Positions 2,220 through 12,081 of a DNA stretch of 64,000 bases are shown one piece after another (position 1 is the stretch's first letter; every line of letters begins with the position of its first letter). Position numbers and translations under genes: made by a program. The notes beneath the pieces were generated by a model that saw only the letters and a list, made by a program, of their open reading frames with translations, was not told the origin of the DNA and made no database searches. Origin of the DNA: Falsiroseomonas algicola (GTDB lineage Bacteria; Pseudomonadota; Alphaproteobacteria; Acetobacterales; Acetobacteraceae); contig NZ_JAAIKB010000013.1 in NCBI RefSeq assembly GCF_011040385.1, positions 1 to 64,000 of the forward strand, read 5' to 3'.

Positions 2220-4538
2220 ATGCGACTGATCCCGGACTTCACCGTGGGCCGCAAACTTGCGGCCTCGGCGCTGCTGACCCTTGCCATGCTGGCGGTGCTG
2301 ACCGGCCTCGTGTGGCGCGCCACCACCGGCATCATCGGGGAGCAGGCCGCCTCGGCCGAAACCGAATCCGCCATGGACCGCCTGGATGAGGGCGAGTCGA
2401 CGCTGCGGGACGTCGCGGTGCTGGAACGCGACCTGCTGCTGCTGCACCAGGAAGCCGCGCAGGCCCCGGCCTGGACGCGCATCGCCACCGCCCTGGAACA
2501 GGGAAGACGCATCGTGCAGGAGGCCGGGCAGCGGCTGAACCGCCCGGAGATGACGGCGGCGATCCAGCGGCTCGATGGCGCGGCCGGCAGCTACGGCCAG
2601 GCGCTGGAACAGGTGGCGCGGCTGCGCCTGCAGATGATCCAGGCCCGGGACAACGAGCTTTTCCCGCGCAGCGGCGAATATGACAGCCTATTCGAGGCGG
2701 TGGCCGCGGCGATTGGCTTCGACGTCCCGGCCGACCAGCAGGACGACGCCCGCCAGCGCCTGATGACGGTGCACGCGGCGGTGAACGACACGCGCATCGG
2801 CATCCAGCGCCTGCTGGCGACCGGGGAGGAGGAGCAGGTGCGCCGCATCCGCCGCGGCATCGCGCAGAGCCGCGTGCATGGCCGCGGCCTCGCTTCCATC
2901 GAGGCGCCGCCCCGGGTGAAGGAGGACATCAACCGGCTGATGGAGCGCGCGCTGGCGGTCGGCGAGGCGTCGAACAAGATCCTGGTGGCGGGCGAGGAGA
3001 TCGCGAAGCTGCGGCGGGAGCAGGTGGAGCCCGCGCGGGCTGCGATGCGGGAGGCGATCGGCGCGGTCGGCGAGGTGGCGCTTCGCATCTCCGCGACCCA
3101 GCGCGCCGCCGTGGCGGAGGAAGCGGAGGGCGCGCGCCAGGGCACGATCTGGGCGGCGATGGCCATCGCCGTGGTCCTGGTCCTGTCCGGCCTGCTGCTG
3201 GCCCGCGTGATCGGCACGCCGCTCCGCCGCCTGTCCGGCGTGATGCGCCGCATCGCCGATGGCGACGCCAGCATCGCCGTGCCGCACCGCAACCGGCATG
3301 ACGAGATCGGCGCGATCGCGGAAGCGCTGGAGACGCTGCGCGTGACCACCGGCCGCGCCTTCGCCCAGCAGCAGATGATCGAGCAGCTGCCGACCGCGGT
3401 GATGTCCGCCGATCCCAACAATGATTTCCGCATGACCTACATGAATGCGGAGACGAAGGCGCTGGTGGAGCGTCTCCGCCACCTGATGCCGACCGACGCG
3501 GATGGCATGATCGGCCAGTCCATCGACATCTTCCACAAGGACCCCAACCACCAGCGCGCGATCCTGTCCGACCCGTCCCGCCTGCCGCATACCTCCCGCA
3601 TCATGCTGGGGAACGAGGTGATCGAGCTGCGGATCTCCGCCATCCGCGATGCCGCCGGCAACTACACCGCCACCATGCTGTGCTGGAACATCGCGACGGA
3701 GAAGGTGCGCCTGGCCGATACCTTCGAGACGGAAGTGGGCAACGTGGTCGGCGCGGTGGCGGAATCCGCGCAGCGCCTGCGGCAATCCGCGGTCGGGCTC
3801 AGCGCCTCGGCCGAGACCTCGGGCACGGAGGCGGCGGCGGTGGCCGCGGCGGGCGGGCGCGCCCAGGCCGATGTGCAGGCCGTGGCCGCGGCGGCGGAGG
3901 AGATGGCGGCCTCGGTCACGGAAATCTCCCGCCAGGTGGCGGAAGCCGCCAGCGTGGCGAGCCAGGCGGTGGCGGAGACCCGCGCCACCGACGCCACCGT
4001 GCAGGGGCTGGCGGAAGCCGCCGCCCGCATCGGCGACGTGGTGCGGCTGATCGGCGACATCGCCGGCCAGACCAACCTGCTGGCGCTGAATGCCACGATC
4101 GAGGCCGCGCGCGCCGGCGATGCCGGCAAGGGCTTCGCGGTGGTGGCGAGCGAGGTGAAGACGCTGGCCGGCCAGACCGCCCGCGCGACGGAGGAGATCG
4201 GCCAGCAGATCGGCCAGATGCAGGCCGCCACCAGCCAGGCCGTCGCCGCCATCCGCGGCATCGGCACGACCGTGGAACGCACCAGCGAGATCGCGACGGC
4301 CATCGCCGCCGCGGTGGAGGAACAGGGCGCCGCGACGCAGGAGATCGCCCGCAGCGCCGCCCAGGTGGCGGAAGCCACCCAGACGGTCGCGACGGGGATC
4401 GAGGGCATCCGCGGCGCGGCGAATGCCACCGGCGGCGCCGCCACCGCGGTCCGCGACGACAGCGGCGCGCTGGCCAGCCAGGCGGAACTGCTGCGCGCCA
4501 AGACCGACGGCTTCCTGCGGGCCGTCCGCGCCCTGTAA
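2220..4538 (+). CDS. Methyl-accepting chemotaxis protein with a cytoplasmic PAS domain (772 aa)
   Basis: Inner-membrane chemoreceptor signalling to CheA/CheW. TM1 is at about residues 12-31 and TM2 at about 309-331, with a long, mostly helical periplasmic region between them. HAMP follows at about 330-380. At about 385-495 is a PAS-like domain ([15 protein letters not shown] ... [18 protein letters not shown]), then the MCP signalling domain with its tip at about 613-643 ([20 protein letters not shown]). A PAS between HAMP and the signalling domain suggests a second, cytoplasmic input such as redox or a small ligand. The ATG at 2220 has only weak ribosome-site bases (aaaagaa). No che genes are in the window. 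The signalling core is nearly identical to the second MCP at 29928. Confidence 0.93.
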
Positions 4539-4600: not shown

Positions 4601-4685
4601 ACGCCGCAGGCGTGCCTTTGGCACGACGAAGCCAAGGAAACCGGAGGTTTCCGCGCCACGCCGCAGGCGTGCCTTCGGCACGACG
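4601..4685. repeat. REP-like pair of 28-bp repeats with internal hairpins
   Basis: A 28-bp unit occurs at 4601-4628 and 4658-4685, differing at one base. Each copy contains two mini-hairpins: cgcc-gca-ggcg, and gtgcc-ttt (or ttc)-ggcac. Between them is a third palindrome, ggaaacc-gga-ggtttcc (about 4637-4653). The 4539-4816 interval has no gene; it ends the MCP unit and precedes the Asd-like gene. The unit looks like an interspersed palindromic repeat rather than CRISPR. Confidence 0.6.
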
Positions 4686-4816
4686 CGTCTGAGGGGGCCT
4701 TGAGCGGTCACGCGAAAAGGCCGTTGGAATAGCCCGACGCGGAAGGCGGCCTCTGCTTGCCCCCTTCCGCCTGAGCGCCTAAGCCGCCCCTCCCCTTCCA
4801 AGGCAGGAGCGGCAGC

Positions 4817-5839
4817 ATGGGCATGAAGGTCGCGGTCGTCGGCGCCACCGGCGCGGTGGGGCGGGAGATCCTCAAGACACTCGCGGAACGGTCCTTCCCG
4901 GCGGATGAGGTCGTGGCGCTCAGCGCCGGGCGCGGCGGCGGGCAGGAAGTCTCCTACGGCGAGGACGCGGTGCTGAAGGTCCGCGGCCTGGAGGGCCACG
5001 ACTTCTCCGACACCGACCTTGCCTTCTTCGCGGCCGGCGCCGCCGCCAGCCAGGTGCATGCGACGCGCGCCGCCGGCCAGGGCTGCATCGTGATCGACGA
5101 CACCAGCGCCTTCCGCATGGAGCCCGACGTGCCGCTGGTGGTGCCGGAGGTGAACGCCAATGCGCTGACCCGCTTCCGCAAGCGGCGCATCATCGGCAAT
5201 CCGAGCCCCGGCAGCATCCAGATGGCGGTCGCGCTGAAGCCGCTGCACGACATCGGCAAGGCGCGGCGCGTGGCGGTCTCCACCTACCAGTCGGTCTCCG
5301 GCGCGGGGCGGGAGGGGATGGATGAGCTCTGGACGCAGACGCGCGGCGTCTATGTGAACGAGACGCCGCCCGCCGAGCAGTTCCCGAAGCAGATCGCCTT
5401 CAACTGCATCCCGCATGTCGGCGACTTCATGGATGACGGCGCGACGCGGGAGGAATGGGCCCTGGCCGCCGAGGCGCGGAAGGTGCTGGACCCCGACATC
5501 GCCGTGGTGGCAACCTGCGTGCGCGTGCCGGTCTTCATCGGCAATGCCCAGGCCGTGCATGTTGCCTTCGAGCGCCCGGTGACGGAAGCCGATGCCCGCA
5601 ACGCGCTGCGGGAGGCGCCGGGCGTCATCGTGCTCGACCGGCGGGAGGATGGCGGCTACGCGACGGCGGCCGAGACCTCGGGCGAGGATGCCGTCTATGT
5701 CAGCCGGCTCCGCCGCGACCTGACGGTGCCGCATGGGCTGGCCTTCTGGAGCGTGACGGACAACCTCCGCAAGGGATCGGCGCTGAACGCGGTGCAGATC
5801 GCGGAGGAACTGGTGGCGCGGAAGCTGGTGGGGGAGTAG
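4817..5839 (+). CDS. Aspartate-semialdehyde dehydrogenase paralogue lacking catalytic Cys and His (340 aa)
   Basis: Full-length member of the Asd family. The dinucleotide-binding start VAVVGATGAVGREILKTLAE, the PDVPLVVPEVNANAL block, STYQSVSGAG, CVRVPVFIG and DNLRKGSALNAVQIAE are all present, and the length matches bacterial Asd. Key residues differ. The catalytic motif NPNCST is NPSPGS here, so residue 131 (codon ccc, 5207-5209) is Pro instead of the nucleophilic Cys. The catalytic His of GHSE is Asn243 (codon aat, 5543-5545). Gln158 and Arg236 are kept. It therefore should not make aspartate semialdehyde, and a true asd should lie elsewhere. USG-1-type Asd homologues are a likely precedent. 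The frame is intact across both changes. Start: ATG with gcaggagc upstream; an internal ATG two codons on is possible. Confidence 0.88.
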   Translation: MGMKVAVVGATGAVGREILKTLAERSFPADEVVALSAGRGGGQEVSYGEDAVLKVRGLEGHDFSDTDLAFFAAGAAASQVHATRAAGQGCIVIDDTSAFRMEPDVPLVVPEVNANALTRFRKRRIIGNPSPGSIQMAVALKPLHDIGKARRVAVSTYQSVSGAGREGMDELWTQTRGVYVNETPPAEQFPKQIAFNCIPHVGDFMDDGATREEWALAAEARKVLDPDIAVVATCVRVPVFIGNAQAVHVAFERPVTEADARNALREAPGVIVLDRREDGGYATAAETSGEDAVYVSRLRRDLTVPHGLAFWSVTDNLRKGSALNAVQIAEELVARKLVGE

Positions 5840-5867: not shown

Positions 5868-6431
5868 TCAGGCGCGGTAGAACAGCACCCGTCCCGCAGG
5901 CAGGACCTGCTGCATGAAGTCGAAGTCGCGGATGTTCCGGGTCAGCACCGTATGCCCGTTCTCCAGCGCATGCAGGTAGATCGCCGCGTCGTTGATGGCG
6001 TGCAGGGCCTGATGGGGCTGGAACCCGCCCAGGCGGTGCACCAGGCCGGCCATGATTCCGGCCTCCAGCATCGTGCCGGGGGCCACGCCCTCCACCCGAT
6101 GCGGCGGGATGTCGTCGATGGCTCCGGCAAGCTCGGCGAGCACGGCCGCGGTGCCGGGCGCCCTGGGATCGAGCTTCCCGAACCAGTTCGTGAGTTCCGC
6201 GAGCACGACCGACAGGTGGAACAAAGGCCGCGCCGCCAGCAGGGCATCGACCTCCGGCGGCGTGGTGCCGCTCAGCACATCAAGGTAGACGGTCGTGTCC
6301 AGCAGGACCGGGGATCCGACCGCGTCGCCCGGACCGACGAAAGTCAGCTGCGCATCCGCGCGCCGCGCCAGCTGGCCGGTCCTGCCCTGCGGCCGGAGGC
6401 GCCGCAACGACCGACGCAGGTCAATCCTCAA
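5868..6431 (-). CDS. PIN-domain (VapC-like) toxin (187 aa)
   Basis: Putative ribonuclease toxin. PIN-type acidic residues are visible in VLLDTTVYLDVLSG, VVLAELTNWFG, INDAAIYLHAL and LTRNIRDFDFM, which suit a metal-dependent RNase site. An N-terminal extension of about 45 residues precedes the PIN core. The frame runs open to an ATG at 6491, which would overlap the antitoxin by 71 nt. I prefer the TTG at 6431 (start of MRIDLRRSLRRLRPQG): it gives the more typical short overlap (11 nt) and has gaaggg upstream. Translational coupling to the antitoxin is likely. The gene is convergent with the Asd-like gene. The toxin role is inferred from domain and gene pair. Confidence 0.75.
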   Translation of the reverse strand: MRIDLRRSLRRLRPQGRTGQLARRADAQLTFVGPGDAVGSPVLLDTTVYLDVLSGTTPPEVDALLAARPLFHLSVVLAELTNWFGKLDPRAPGTAAVLAELAGAIDDIPPHRVEGVAPGTMLEAGIMAGLVHRLGGFQPHQALHAINDAAIYLHALENGHTVLTRNIRDFDFMQQVLPAGRVLFYRA

Positions 6432-6702
6432 CGGTGAGGATGCCCTTCGCCACGCGCCCCTTCCGGGCGAGCAGGCGACTGCCGAAATCATCCTCCATCG
6501 CGACCTTGATCAGGGCGTAGGTCAGGAGCTCCGTCGGCTCCGTGATGCCGGCCCGGCGCTGCGCCTCGGCGACCAGGTGGTCCGGAAACCGCCCGGCGAG
6601 CTGCCTGGATTTGGGTCCGGCAAGCAGCCCGGCCTCGTCCGCCGCCTTCTTCAGCCGCGCCCGCCGGCGCTCGCCGAGCGAGCCTTCCGCGATGTCGGCC
6701 AT
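6421..6702 (-). CDS. Probable antitoxin of the PIN toxin (93 aa)
   Basis: Small gene directly upstream of, and overlapping, the PIN-domain gene, as expected for an antitoxin. The N-terminus is basic and helical (GERRRARLKKAADEAG), and the C-terminal half (AMEDDFGSRLLARKGRVAKG) is the likely toxin-binding tail. I see no clear ribbon-helix-helix or AbrB signature, so the DNA-binding class is uncertain. The ATG at 6702 has cgggaggc upstream. Palindromes in the promoter at 6728-6760 fit autorepression by the toxin-antitoxin complex. Confidence 0.68.
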   Translation of the reverse strand: MADIAEGSLGERRRARLKKAADEAGLLAGPKSRQLAGRFPDHLVAEAQRRAGITEPTELLTYALIKVAMEDDFGSRLLARKGRVAKGILTVED

Positions 6703-8410: not shown

Positions 8411-8466
8411 ATGGACGTCTGTCCATGTTGCGCCGCGTTGACGCTATGGCGCGGTGCACCATAAAA
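8411..8466 (+). promoter_or_regulatory. Putative sdh operon promoter with upstream palindrome
   Basis: TTGACG (8438-8443), a 17-nt spacer and ATAAAA (8461-8466) make a good sigma70-like promoter in an otherwise GC-rich stretch, about 100 bp upstream of sdhC. Just upstream is a perfect palindrome, atggac-gtct-gtccat (8411-8426), a possible operator for carbon- or iron-linked control of sdh. Confidence 0.5.
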
Positions 8467-8564
8467 GCATCCACAAGGTTGAGCGTGCGCCCCGCCTCGA
8501 CGCCGGGCGCGCCATGAGGAGCGGGCGCCTTATGTCGACAATGCAGGATTCGCGGGAGGCGACC

Positions 8565-8975
8565 ATGATCGGTCGCCGGTCGGACGGCACGCCGGTCAGG
8601 CGGCCGCTGTCGCCGCATCTGCAGGTCTATGACATGCTGCAGATGACCAGCGCGCTGTCGATCAGCCATCGCATCACGGGCGTGATCTGGTCCGTCGGCG
8701 CGGCGGTGATGGTGTGGTGGCTGGTGGCCGCGGCCTCCGGGCCCGAGGCTTTCGGGAACGTCCAGTGGTTCCTGGGCTCCTTCCTCGGCATCCTGTTCCT
8801 GATGGGGCTGACGGGCGCCGCCTGGTTCCACACCCTGGCTGGCATCCGCCACCTGCTGTGGGATGCCGGCTGGGGCTACGACATCCCGACCGTCTACAAG
8901 ACGGGCCGCGCGGTGCTGATCGGCACGGGCGTGCTGACGGCGCTGACTTGGCTCGCGCTGCTGATCTCCTGGTAA
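8565..8975 (+). CDS. sdhC: Succinate dehydrogenase cytochrome b556 subunit (136 aa)
   Basis: Membrane anchor of complex II, carrying haem b and part of the ubiquinone site. RPLSPHLQVYDM leads into SALSISHRITGVIW, the SdhC signature whose His/Arg lie at the haem-quinone site. Three membrane helices follow, and WFHTLAGIRHLLWDAG contains the haem-ligand His region. Several in-frame ATGs lie upstream (8454, 8514, 8532), but only the one at 8565 has a strong Shine-Dalgarno site (gggagg, 8554-8559) and gives normal length. It is the first gene of sdhCDAB, 11 bp before sdhD. Confidence 0.93.
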   Translation: MIGRRSDGTPVRRPLSPHLQVYDMLQMTSALSISHRITGVIWSVGAAVMVWWLVAAASGPEAFGNVQWFLGSFLGILFLMGLTGAAWFHTLAGIRHLLWDAGWGYDIPTVYKTGRAVLIGTGVLTALTWLALLISW

Positions 8976-8986
8976 GGGGCGGAACC

Positions 8987-9394
8987 ATGTCGCATTCGAC
9001 CGGGGAAGCGCCCCGCCAGTCCCAGCTCCGCACGCCGCTCGGCCGCGTGCGCGGCGCGGGTTCCGCCAAGTCCGGCGTCGCGCATTGGTGGGGCCAGCGC
9101 GTCACCTCCATCGCGCTGCTGCCGCTGACGATCTGGTTCATCGCCTCGCTCGCGACCTCCGCCGGCATGCCGCACCATGTGGCGCAGGCCTGGATCGGGC
9201 ATCCGCTGAACGCGGTGCTGCTGCTGGCGCTGATCGGCCTGACCTTCCACCACATCGCGGCCGGGCTGCAGGTGGTGATCGAGGACTACGCGAGCACCGA
9301 GGGTTCCAAGATCGCTGCCGTGCTGGCGGTGAAGTTCGTCTGCGTGCTGCTGGCGCTGGCGGCGGCGCTCGCCGTGCTGCGCATTGCGGTCTGA
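8987..9394 (+). CDS. sdhD: Succinate dehydrogenase hydrophobic anchor subunit (135 aa)
   Basis: Second membrane anchor of complex II. The N-terminal part (TPLGRVRGAGSAKSGVAHWW) matches alphaproteobacterial SdhD, followed by three hydrophobic helices. FHHIAAGLQVVIEDY carries the conserved His and the Asp-Tyr pair near the quinone site. The start ATG follows aaggggcgga. With SdhC it holds the SdhAB catalytic dimer at the cytoplasmic face of the membrane. Confidence 0.93.
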   Translation: MSHSTGEAPRQSQLRTPLGRVRGAGSAKSGVAHWWGQRVTSIALLPLTIWFIASLATSAGMPHHVAQAWIGHPLNAVLLLALIGLTFHHIAAGLQVVIEDYASTEGSKIAAVLAVKFVCVLLALAAALAVLRIAV

Positions 9395-9466
9395 CGCGGC
9401 GACCATAGTTCAAGGCCTGGCGGCGCGGGCTACGGGGCCCCGCCTGATGAATGGACGGCACAGCTG

Positions 9467-11284
9467 ATGAACGCCATCTCGAAGCCCTCGATCGGCAATG
9501 GTGCGTATCGCATCGTCGATCACACCTATGACGTCGTCGTGGTCGGCGCCGGTGGCGCGGGCCTGCGCGCCACCTTCGGCATGGGGGCCTCCGGCCTCAA
9601 GACCGCCTGCATCACCAAGGTCTTCCCGACGCGCTCCCACACCGTCGCCGCGCAGGGCGGCGTCGGCGCCGCGCTCGGCAACATGGGCGAGGATGACTGG
9701 CGCTGGCACATGTACGACACCGTGAAGGGGTCGGACTGGCTGGGTGACCAGGACGCGATCGAGTACATGTGCCGCGAGGCGATCCCGGCGATCATCGAGC
9801 TCGAGCATTTCGGCGTGCCCTTCAGCCGGACCGAGGACGGCAAGATCTACCAGCGCCCCTTCGGCGGCCATATGCAGAACTACGGCAAGACGCCGGCGAT
9901 GCGCGCCTGCGCCGCGGCCGACCGTACCGGCCACGCCATCCTGCACACGCTCTACCAGCAGGCGCTGAAGGCCAATTGCGAATTCTTCGTCGAATACATC
10001 GCCCTCGACCTGATCATGGACGATGAGGGCGCCTGCCGCGGCGTCACCGCCTGGTGCCTGGAGGATGGGTCGCTCCATCGCTTCCGTGCCCAGTCCGTGG
10101 TGCTGGCGACGGGCGGCTACGGCCGCGCCTATTTCTCCTGCACCTCCGCCCATACCTGCACGGGCGATGGCGGCGGCATGGTGCTGCGCGCCGGCCTGCC
10201 GCTGCAGGACAACGAATTCGTCCAGTTCCACCCGACCGGCATCTACGGCTCCGGCTGCCTGGTGACGGAGGGTGCGCGCGGCGAGGGCGGGTACCTCACC
10301 AACTCCGAGGGCGAGCGCTTCATGGAGCGCTACGCACCGACCGCGAAGGACCTGGCGTCCCGCGACGTCGTCTCCCGCGCCATGTCGATGGAGATCCGCG
10401 AAGGCCGCGGCGTCGGCCCGCTGAAGGACCACATCCACCTGCACCTGGAACACCTCGGCGCCGACCTGCTGCATGAACGGCTGCCGGGCATCTCGGAGAC
10501 GGCGAAGATCTTCGCCGGCGTGGACGTGACGAAGGAGCCGATCCCGATGCTCCCGACCGTCCACTACAACATGGGCGGCATCCCCACGAACATCCACACG
10601 GAGGTCCTGAACCCGACGGCGGGCGACCAGGACCGGGTGGTGCGCGGGCTGATGGCGGTGGGCGAGGCCGCCTGCGTCTCCGTCCATGGCGCCAACCGCC
10701 TCGGCACCAACAGCCTGCTCGACCTGGTGGTCTTCGGCCGCGCGGCCGCGCATCGCGCTGCCGAGACGATCAAGCCGGGTGCGACCCAGGCGCCGCTGCC
10801 GCCGGGCGCGGGCGAGGCTTCCTTCGCCCGCTTCGACAAGGTGCGCCACACCAAGGGTTCCTCCAGCGTCGCCGATGTCCGCCTGCAGATGCAGCGGACG
10901 ATGCAGGAACACGCGGCCGTCTTCCGGACCAGCGAGCTGCTGGCCGAGGGCGTGCAGAAGATGAACAAGGTGGCGGCGGGCTACGAGGATATCCGCATCG
11001 CCGACCGCAGCCTGATCTGGAACAGCGACCTGCTGGAGGCGCTGGAGCTGGACAACCTGCTCGGCAACGCGCTGACGACGATCGTCGGTGCCGATGCGCG
11101 CAAGGAAAGCCGCGGCGCGCATGCGCATGAGGATTTCCCGGAGCGCGACGACCAGAACTGGATGAAGCACACCCTCGCCTGGGTCGATGACAAGCGGAAC
11201 GTCAAGCTCGACTACCGCGACGTGAAGATGCGCACGCTCACCAACGAAGTGCAGGTCTTCCCGCCCAAGGCCCGCGTGTACTAG
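9467..11284 (+). CDS. sdhA: Succinate dehydrogenase flavoprotein subunit (605 aa)
   Basis: Catalytic subunit of complex II: it oxidises succinate to fumarate in the TCA cycle and passes electrons through FAD to SdhB. The FAD Rossmann motif [17 protein letters not shown] is at about residues 23-39. The His that covalently binds FAD is in [11 protein letters not shown]. Substrate motifs include [13 protein letters not shown] and TEGARGEGG (active-site Arg), plus [19 protein letters not shown] near the C-terminal third. Length is typical. The start at 9467 follows a 72-bp gap after sdhD; the next gene, sdhB, starts 14 bp after its stop. Confidence 0.97.
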
Positions 11285-11298
11285 GAGCCCGATGGATC

Positions 11299-12081
11299 AT
11301 GGCTACCTTTACGCTGCCCAAGAACTCCACGATCTCGAAGGGCAAGCACTATCCCGCGCCGCATGGCGCGAAGAAGGTGCGGAGCTTCAAGATCTATCGC
11401 TGGGATCCCGATAGCGGGGAGAACCCGCGCACGGATACCTATGACATCGACCTCGATGCCTGCGGGCCGATGGTTCTTGATGCCCTCATCAAGATCAAGA
11501 ACGAGGTGGACACCACGCTGACCTTCCGGCGGTCCTGCCGGGAGGGCATCTGCGGCTCCTGCTCGATGAACATCGACGGGCTGAACACGCTCGCCTGCCT
11601 GAAGCCGATCGAGGATGTGACGGGCGAGGTGAAGATCCACCCGCTGCCGCACATGCCGGTGGTGAAGGATTTGGTGCCGGACCTCAGCCAGATCTACGCG
11701 CAGCTCCGCAGCGTCGAGCCCTGGCTGAAGGCCGATACGCCCCCGCCGCCGGATGGGGAGCGGCTGCAGTCGAAGGAGGAGCGGGCGAAGCTCGACGGCC
11801 TCTGGGAATGCATCCTCTGCTTCTGCTGCTCGACCGCCTGCCCCTCTTACTGGTGGAACGGCGACCGGTATCTCGGCCCGGCCGTGCTGCTGCAGGCCTA
11901 TCGCTGGATCGCGGACAGCCGCGACGAGGCGACGGGCGAGCGGCTGGATGCGCTGGAGGATCCCTTCAAGCTCTATCGCTGCCACACCATCATGAACTGC
12001 GCCCGCACCTGCCCGAAGGGTCTGAATCCGGGCCAGGCGATCGGCGAGATCAAGAAGATGCTGGCCGAGCGCCAGGTCTGA
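11299..12081 (+). CDS. sdhB: Succinate dehydrogenase iron-sulfur subunit (260 aa)
   Basis: Electron-transfer subunit of complex II with three Fe-S centres. The [2Fe-2S] ferredoxin motif [16 protein letters not shown] is at about residues 79-94. The dicluster domain shows [16 protein letters not shown] and later [18 protein letters not shown], providing the [4Fe-4S] and [3Fe-4S] ligands. Length is typical. It is the last gene of sdhCDAB, followed by a strong terminator. Confidence 0.97.

Follow-up and report, generated by a model that had tools for sequence, protein, structure and literature searches.

A retained Asd homologue of Falsiroseomonas algicola that has lost its active site, and the recurrence of this loss among related Alphaproteobacteria

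The asd-like gene and its genome

The window analyzed here is a 64,000-nucleotide stretch of Falsiroseomonas algicola DNA (Acetobacteraceae; contig NZ_JAAIKB010000013.1, positions 1 to 64,000 of the forward strand). Between a chemotaxis-receptor-like ORF and a succinate dehydrogenase cluster it carries an Asd-type gene, here called copy B (Table 1). Asd acts at an essential branch point from which lysine, diaminopimelate, threonine, and methionine are made, and it is treated as a drug target (PMC3276109; PMC9385607). By profile, copy B belongs to the asd_B enzymes: it reaches 387.8 bits against NCBIfam TIGR01296 (cut-off 324.2) and 426.5 bits against NF011456 (cut-off 223), and contains both Pfam domains, Semialdhyde_dh and Semialdhyde_dhC. 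The active-site Gln and the carboxylate-binding Arg are present as Q158 and R236, while alignment to solved enzymes pairs NPNC with NPSP and the His of GHA with Asn (GNA), so that the catalytic Cys and His are absent. Seven further sites (S37A, S72A, N95D, N130S, S132G, T133S, and K215A) depart from residues that at most one of 91 live orthologues lacks. As aligned, nine active-site or coenzyme-site residues of the window protein are thus replaced, including C131P and H243N.

A preliminary description of the sequence had reported a full-length Asd homologue with these two catalytic replacements and with Q158 and R236 remaining, and its coordinates, strand, length, and named residues were all exact. 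Its further statement, that there is no frameshift and that the fold is intact, agrees with the stop-free translation and with a predicted structure (AlphaFold model from 16 aligned sequences; pLDDT 87.1, pTM 0.87), for which the ASADHs 8juo and then 2qz9 head the 50 PDB matches listed by Foldseek, with TM-scores of 0.86–0.87, that of 2qz9 being 0.87. The phrase “otherwise conserved Asd” holds outside the active and coenzyme sites and fails within them. Sequencing error at both codons is ruled out by two relatives, 94–95% identical, that carry NPSPGS or NPSPAS together with GNA at the corresponding residues. Of the relatives that have names, Roseomonas ponticola (95%) and Falsiroseomonas stagni (86%) come closest.

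Table 1. Features of the copy B locus, and the second asd of the same genome (window positions unless a contig is given)
Feature	Position	Strand	Basis or remark
Chemotaxis-receptor-like ORF, upstream syntenic anchor	2220..4538	+	reading of ORF
26-base repeat CGCCGCAGGCGTGCCTTYGGCACGAC, two copies just upstream of B	4602-4627 and 4659-4684		
Possible ribosome-binding site AGGAG, 7 bases before ATG of B	4805..4809	+	read from sequence
Asd-type (asd_B) ORF, copy B, full-length, catalytic residues lost	4817..5839	+	stop-free translation, 340 aa
Nucleophile-loop codons, NPSPGS, residues 128-133 (live family NPNCST)	5198..5215	+	translation, alignment
P131 codon CCC, catalytic-Cys place	5207..5209	+	alignment to 2qz9, 8juo, 2yv3, and 91 live orthologues
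Q158 codon, kept	5288..5290	+	
A215 codon (Lys in 91/91 live orthologues)	5459..5461	+	alignment
R236 codon, kept in dead and live B	5522..5524	+	
N243 codon AAT, catalytic-His place (GNAQ at 242-245)	5543..5545	+	alignments to solved enzymes and live orthologues
PIN-domain-like ORF, just downstream of asd	5868-6491	-	by reading
Succinate dehydrogenase cluster sdhC, sdhD, sdhA, sdhB, downstream anchor	8454..12081	+	names by reading, no family search
A1, second asd, intact NPNCTT and HAE	G000:C90:129379-130386		43% identical to B

The 26-base repeat occurs in five exact copies genome-wide, against none for a reversed control. The PIN-domain-like ORF looks like a recent insertion, because among 130 B loci it has a tblastn match at the window locus only.

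A whole-genome Pfam search with the dimerization domain returned three genes: B, an argC-like gene on contig C22, and the second asd, A1. This finding of A1 rules out the absence of any other asd from the genome. A1 passes both asd models and, because its catalytic residues are intact, presumably supplies the Asd activity of the cell.

Other Asd-like genes were encountered in related genomes. A further paralogue, A2 (motifs NPNCVAAI and RAHAMA; for example L083:5001-5999 in G115), is approximately 50–55% identical to A1 and passes the asd models; in G073 it is present together with a weaker argC-like match, and B was not found there. A third Asd-like gene, which shares approximately 50% identity with B and retains both Cys and His (motifs VANCST and VAHAEA or VGHAEA), was seen in two genomes of different genera, at L019 (G006:C1:145684-146709), where an EamA-type-transporter-like ORF, named by reading, precedes it, and at L209 (G224:C706:19031-20056). 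In another family, A1 and a live B lie approximately 2 kb apart on the same strand at L292 (G559:C26:242500-251500).

Dead and live copies in the genus, family, and class

Copies of B lacking the catalytic Cys are termed dead below, and those retaining it live. Among 15 genomes of the genus, 13 carry a B without the catalytic Cys, with 12 different loops in its place: NPSPGS (two genomes), NPSPAS, NPTGAT, NPNGST, IPHPAT, CPAPLA, CPSALA, NPLDAI, CPGSAA, CPGGMA, CPGSVS, and SPCGIA, the last with a Cys one place earlier. One species of the genus (G014) has kept B with NPNCST and GHAE, another genome (G005) yielded no B, and in G010 the gene is split over two contig ends.

The family searches dealt with 120 genomes for B and 397 for A1; 71 genomes with A1 are considered, 69 from the 397-genome search and two from the genus search, the A1 of G006 being classed by score rather than by reading its sequence. 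Full-length B proteins read in the family number 130, a count that leaves out the two G010 pieces, a partial copy in G021, two loci of the third paralogue, and G043, whose alignment starts late and whose motif is live, as well as the partial copies of G040 and G078. The catalytic Cys is missing from 39, with 29 distinct loops. Genomes with A1 have 38 dead and 30 live copies (68 full-length B), and genomes without it 1 dead and 61 live (62 full-length B). Fisher's test of A1 against dead B gives p = 6e-13 with related genomes treated as independent; an independent-pairs test has only 3 supported contrasts and is not significant, and the association therefore depends on how rarely B is dead where there is no A1. 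The 62 A1-negative copies come from 56 of the 107 A1-negative genomes in the 120-genome search and 6 more, with high scorers over-represented. Because this set was partly the top of a ranked list, the lowest-scoring unread copies from 30 additional A1-negative genomes of the family were also read, and Cys131, His243, and Lys215 are kept in 30/30.

In G104, a 560-contig assembly, B is dead and no further Asd came up in the A1 or Pfam searches, which points to either an assembly gap or a true exception. A missing argC was considered as a sign of poor assembly and set aside, as four other genomes lack argC in the same search. The paralogue A2 was rejected as a trigger of inactivation, B being live in 18/18 genomes that have A2 without A1, and dead B therefore goes with A1, not with A2. 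The presence of A1 does not force the inactivation of B, since 30 A1-positive genomes keep it intact. Within the 71 A1 genomes B is full-length in 68, split in G010, and not found in G005 (97% complete) or G330 (75%); the B search also failed to find it in G661 (96%), outside the family. B is therefore not strictly indispensable.

Among 289 genomes across the class, A1 (E below 1e-110) was found in 10 outside the family. The accompanying B is dead in 7, from five genera (G434, G562, and G659 of one genus, G436, G452, G529, and G564), live in G559 and G666, and not found in G661. The copies of G434, G562, and G659 share just 39% identity with the window protein and were taken as B by the leu-gene neighborhood in G434, and the alignment of the G436 copy ends at residue 290. 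Four Azospirillum genomes with A1, found by similarity to the window protein, comprise strain TSH64, with NPNGAT, and three with B intact. Control copies from A1-negative genomes of other families keep Cys and His in 60/60; they were picked from 114 genomes, none among the A1 genomes of the class-wide search, and a few are only 41–48% identical and may not be strict orthologues.

Old loci, repeated losses, and constraint on the protein

By tblastn, sdhC lies downstream of B at 39/130 loci, 15 dead and 24 live, most of the available flanks extending only 1.5–5 kb. In genus g4, sdhC starts 1.1–1.9 kb after the start of B (itself 1.0 kb) at 10/10 dead and 4/4 live loci. By reading, the dead gene of G434 comes after ORFs for leuC, leuD, and leuB, and that of G529 has leuD and leuB ORFs nearby. 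Because the sdh synteny is common to dead and live B, and given these leu neighborhoods, the dead genes are long-standing residents of asd loci rather than recent arrivals; in the window, the gene is the ancestral Asd of the family, still in its old place. A plasmid or mobile origin was also considered and rejected: a near search of a plasmid collection returned nothing beyond a 53-base and a 63-base match, both to Streptomyces Asd genes.

On a tree of 162 B proteins, built with the sites released in dead copies (see below) left out, dead B forms 13 separate clades if loss is irreversible, and collapsing weak forks leaves 11 (support below 80), 8 (below 90), or 6 (below 95) losses. With reversals allowed, the minimum is 10 changes on this tree and 4 on a 130-row tree. 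The independent losses thus number 6 to 13 if irreversible. The long dead branches of g4, g45, and g91 group together, which may hide further losses or reflect misplacement.

The 39 dead full-length genes contain 0 in-frame stops, and neither frameshifts nor neutral evolution mark them as pseudogenes. Median dN/dS (Nei-Gojobori) is 0.139 for dead–dead pairs (30 pairs, range 0.084–0.363) and 0.110 for live–live pairs (26 pairs), the pairs overlapping one another within each comparison. Live B has 156 positions with conservation of 97% or more; dead B has released 31 of these, including G12, S37, S40, S72, N95, S97, N130, C131, S132, T133, Q135, K215, H243, and E245, and 44 are kept throughout. 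Published ASADH work (PMC3276109; PMC9385607), together with motif position, assigns the released residues to catalysis, substrate binding, or NADP binding. In 13 disjoint pairs of each kind, dN/dS at the 31 released sites is 0.25 in dead and 0.005 in live B, and over the rest of the protein 0.139 and 0.133; since these sites were chosen for varying in dead and not live copies, both contrasts are partly built in, a circularity from which the whole-gene figures are free. Relaxation in dead B is largely confined to the chemistry.

A similar partition emerges from 36 active-site and coenzyme positions drawn from literature motifs and background knowledge, where dead copies match the live consensus at 0.48 on average, against 0.82 over the other 120 conserved positions. 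Constraint specific to the dimerization domain was looked for and is absent: outside the site list, the coenzyme domain stands at 0.81 and the dimerization domain at 0.83, and no single binding surface is indicated, because both domains are conserved equally. Most of the substituted residues are small or non-polar, as would be expected if a disused pocket were filled for stability; K215A, S72A, and changes of C131 to P, A, G, S, or D turn up in several lineages. None of the 30 Cys-retaining B that accompany A1 shows loss at 27 other site residues, the Cys is gone from both G011 and G281, which are the dead copies with the fewest changes, and in Azospirillum sp. TSH64 the Cys and the next residue are the sole differences from its relatives in the motifs read. 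These observations are no more than a hint that loss always begins with the Cys, given that mutability differs between sites and that TSH64 is a single genome.

A retained fold and its possible role

The nearest parallel is USG-1, represented by E. coli Usg and the P. aeruginosa homologue of known structure (PDB 2hjs). Like the window protein, for which the fold is predicted, these combine an Asd fold with the absence of the catalytic Cys (VPDSLT in E. coli Usg; SPCAVA in 2hjs, with GDS at the His place), and like dead B they stand beside another Asd. They differ in locus, which is truA/pdxB for USG-1, and E. coli Usg keeps the His that is Asn in the window protein. The latter also falls below the cut-offs of PRK08040, the Usg model by its best match to E. 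coli Usg (260.3; cut-off 273), and of PRK05671, presumably also a Usg-type model (247.7; cut-off 284). The earlier comparison with USG-1-type relatives therefore stands as a parallel and not as membership, and by analogy the window protein may work like USG-1, as far as that is known, from outside that family. A Salmonella study (PMC6358828) describes usg as a putative Asd within an operon. In full-length homology, fold, Q158, R236, locus, and above-cut-off scores, the window protein instead follows the asd_B enzymes (TIGR01296/NF011456; Vibrio cholerae isoform II, 2qz9), from which it departs in lacking the catalytic Cys and His and the substrate-site Lys and in its replaced coenzyme-pocket residues.

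In an ASADH, replacing the Cys with Ser all but abolishes catalysis, and replacing the His with Asn impairs it (PMC3276109). Since the window protein has Pro and Asn at those places, copy B is, judging from its residues, almost certainly catalytically dead, and there is equally little doubt that it is kept by selection on the protein. We favor, with a probability of about 0.6, the reading that A1 took over catalysis and that B was retained as a pseudoenzyme for a non-catalytic role, likely one inherited from the live enzyme. The ancestral alphaproteobacterial Asd would thus have turned pseudoenzyme at its old locus, with A1 carrying the NADP-dependent reduction of aspartyl phosphate. After the arrival of A1, B would have lost its nucleophile and base, its substrate lysine, and a number of residues in the coenzyme pocket, with everything else in the protein staying under approximately the constraint of the live enzyme. 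In many species B probably binds NADP poorly while its folded body is still constrained, and it would be kept for something that the folded protein does rather than the pocket, for example partner binding; candidate partners are A1, another aspartate-pathway enzyme, or something unrelated. The role itself probably dates from when B was a live enzyme and was not gained later. The “kept pseudoenzyme” of the preliminary description is supported by the full length, the predicted fold, the second intact asd, purifying selection, and recurrence in relatives.

Prozymes offer the closest competing model, in which a dead paralogue beside an active one enters a mixed oligomer, here with A1, and regulates or stabilizes it. 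Dead paralogues with a regulatory role are a known theme, and dead B occurs almost only alongside A1. ASADHs are, moreover, dimers with intersubunit communication (PMC3276109). A complex of B with A1 is only a proposal here, however: the two are just 43% identical, their binding would be needed in each of several lineages, and the dimerization domain is no better kept than the coenzyme domain. The tyrosine of the TYQ motif, which PMC3276109 places at the dimer interface of the Vibrio enzyme, is also replaced in four dead groups (g4, g45, part of g1, and g91). We regard such an arrangement as unlikely, though worth keeping in mind.

The preliminary description had also offered a new reaction as an alternative. 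In such a case B would have gained a different catalytic residue within its former pocket. Some lineages do hold their loop constant (CPLPAS in 4/4 of one g102 clade, SPVAGA in 5/10 of the g4 clade), R236 remains, and Q158 is present in many copies. Against this, the loop varies in almost every species, the 39 genes having 29 sequences in which G, A, S, P, or D has taken the place of the Cys; the coenzyme-pocket residues S37, S40, S72, N95, and S97, and in many copies G12, have been released; and no replacement among the sites compared is common to all 39. A new enzyme is accordingly improbable.

A decaying pseudogene, made redundant by A1 and awaiting deletion, would explain why rates are slightly raised, reaching 0.36 in g16. 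The absence of stops, dN/dS values that stay far under 1 across all 30 dead pairs, a level of constraint beyond the released sites that equals that of live B, and the retention of B in 69/71 A1 genomes make this very hard to sustain. Harder still to credit is a need for the region's DNA or RNA, such as a regulatory element for the sdh genes that lie downstream of B in many genomes, as the constraint acts on amino acids, two opposite-strand ORFs (by reading) separate asd from sdhC in the window, and leuD-leuB-like ORFs, again by reading, adjoin the dead gene in G434 and G529. The idea that B continues to work as an Asd despite its unusual active site, for which the kept Q158, R236, and overall fold might speak, is scarcely tenable with Cys, His, and the substrate-site Lys all gone, when the published Cys-to-Ser variant alone is nearly inactive (PMC3276109).

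Our literature search, with most subscription journals beyond its reach, found no report of such a dead Asd. NF011456 is passed by 4/4 dead proteins scanned, and by such curated equivalog models dead copies are named active Asd, which can mislead metabolic models and target lists.

Near-full selection after repeated loss of the chemistry implies that the protein does something else as well as catalyze. We suggest, tentatively and at somewhat less than even odds, that the alphaproteobacterial Asd has a conserved second function that needs the fold and not the chemistry, and that B is repeatedly stripped once another Asd catalyzes. Species with A1 should tolerate deletion of B without losing amino-acid synthesis, which makes a direct test possible. 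If the suggestion is true, the dead copies would be natural separation-of-function mutants, with as many independent cases as there are irreversible losses, and USG-1 of the gammaproteobacteria may represent an earlier instance of this process.
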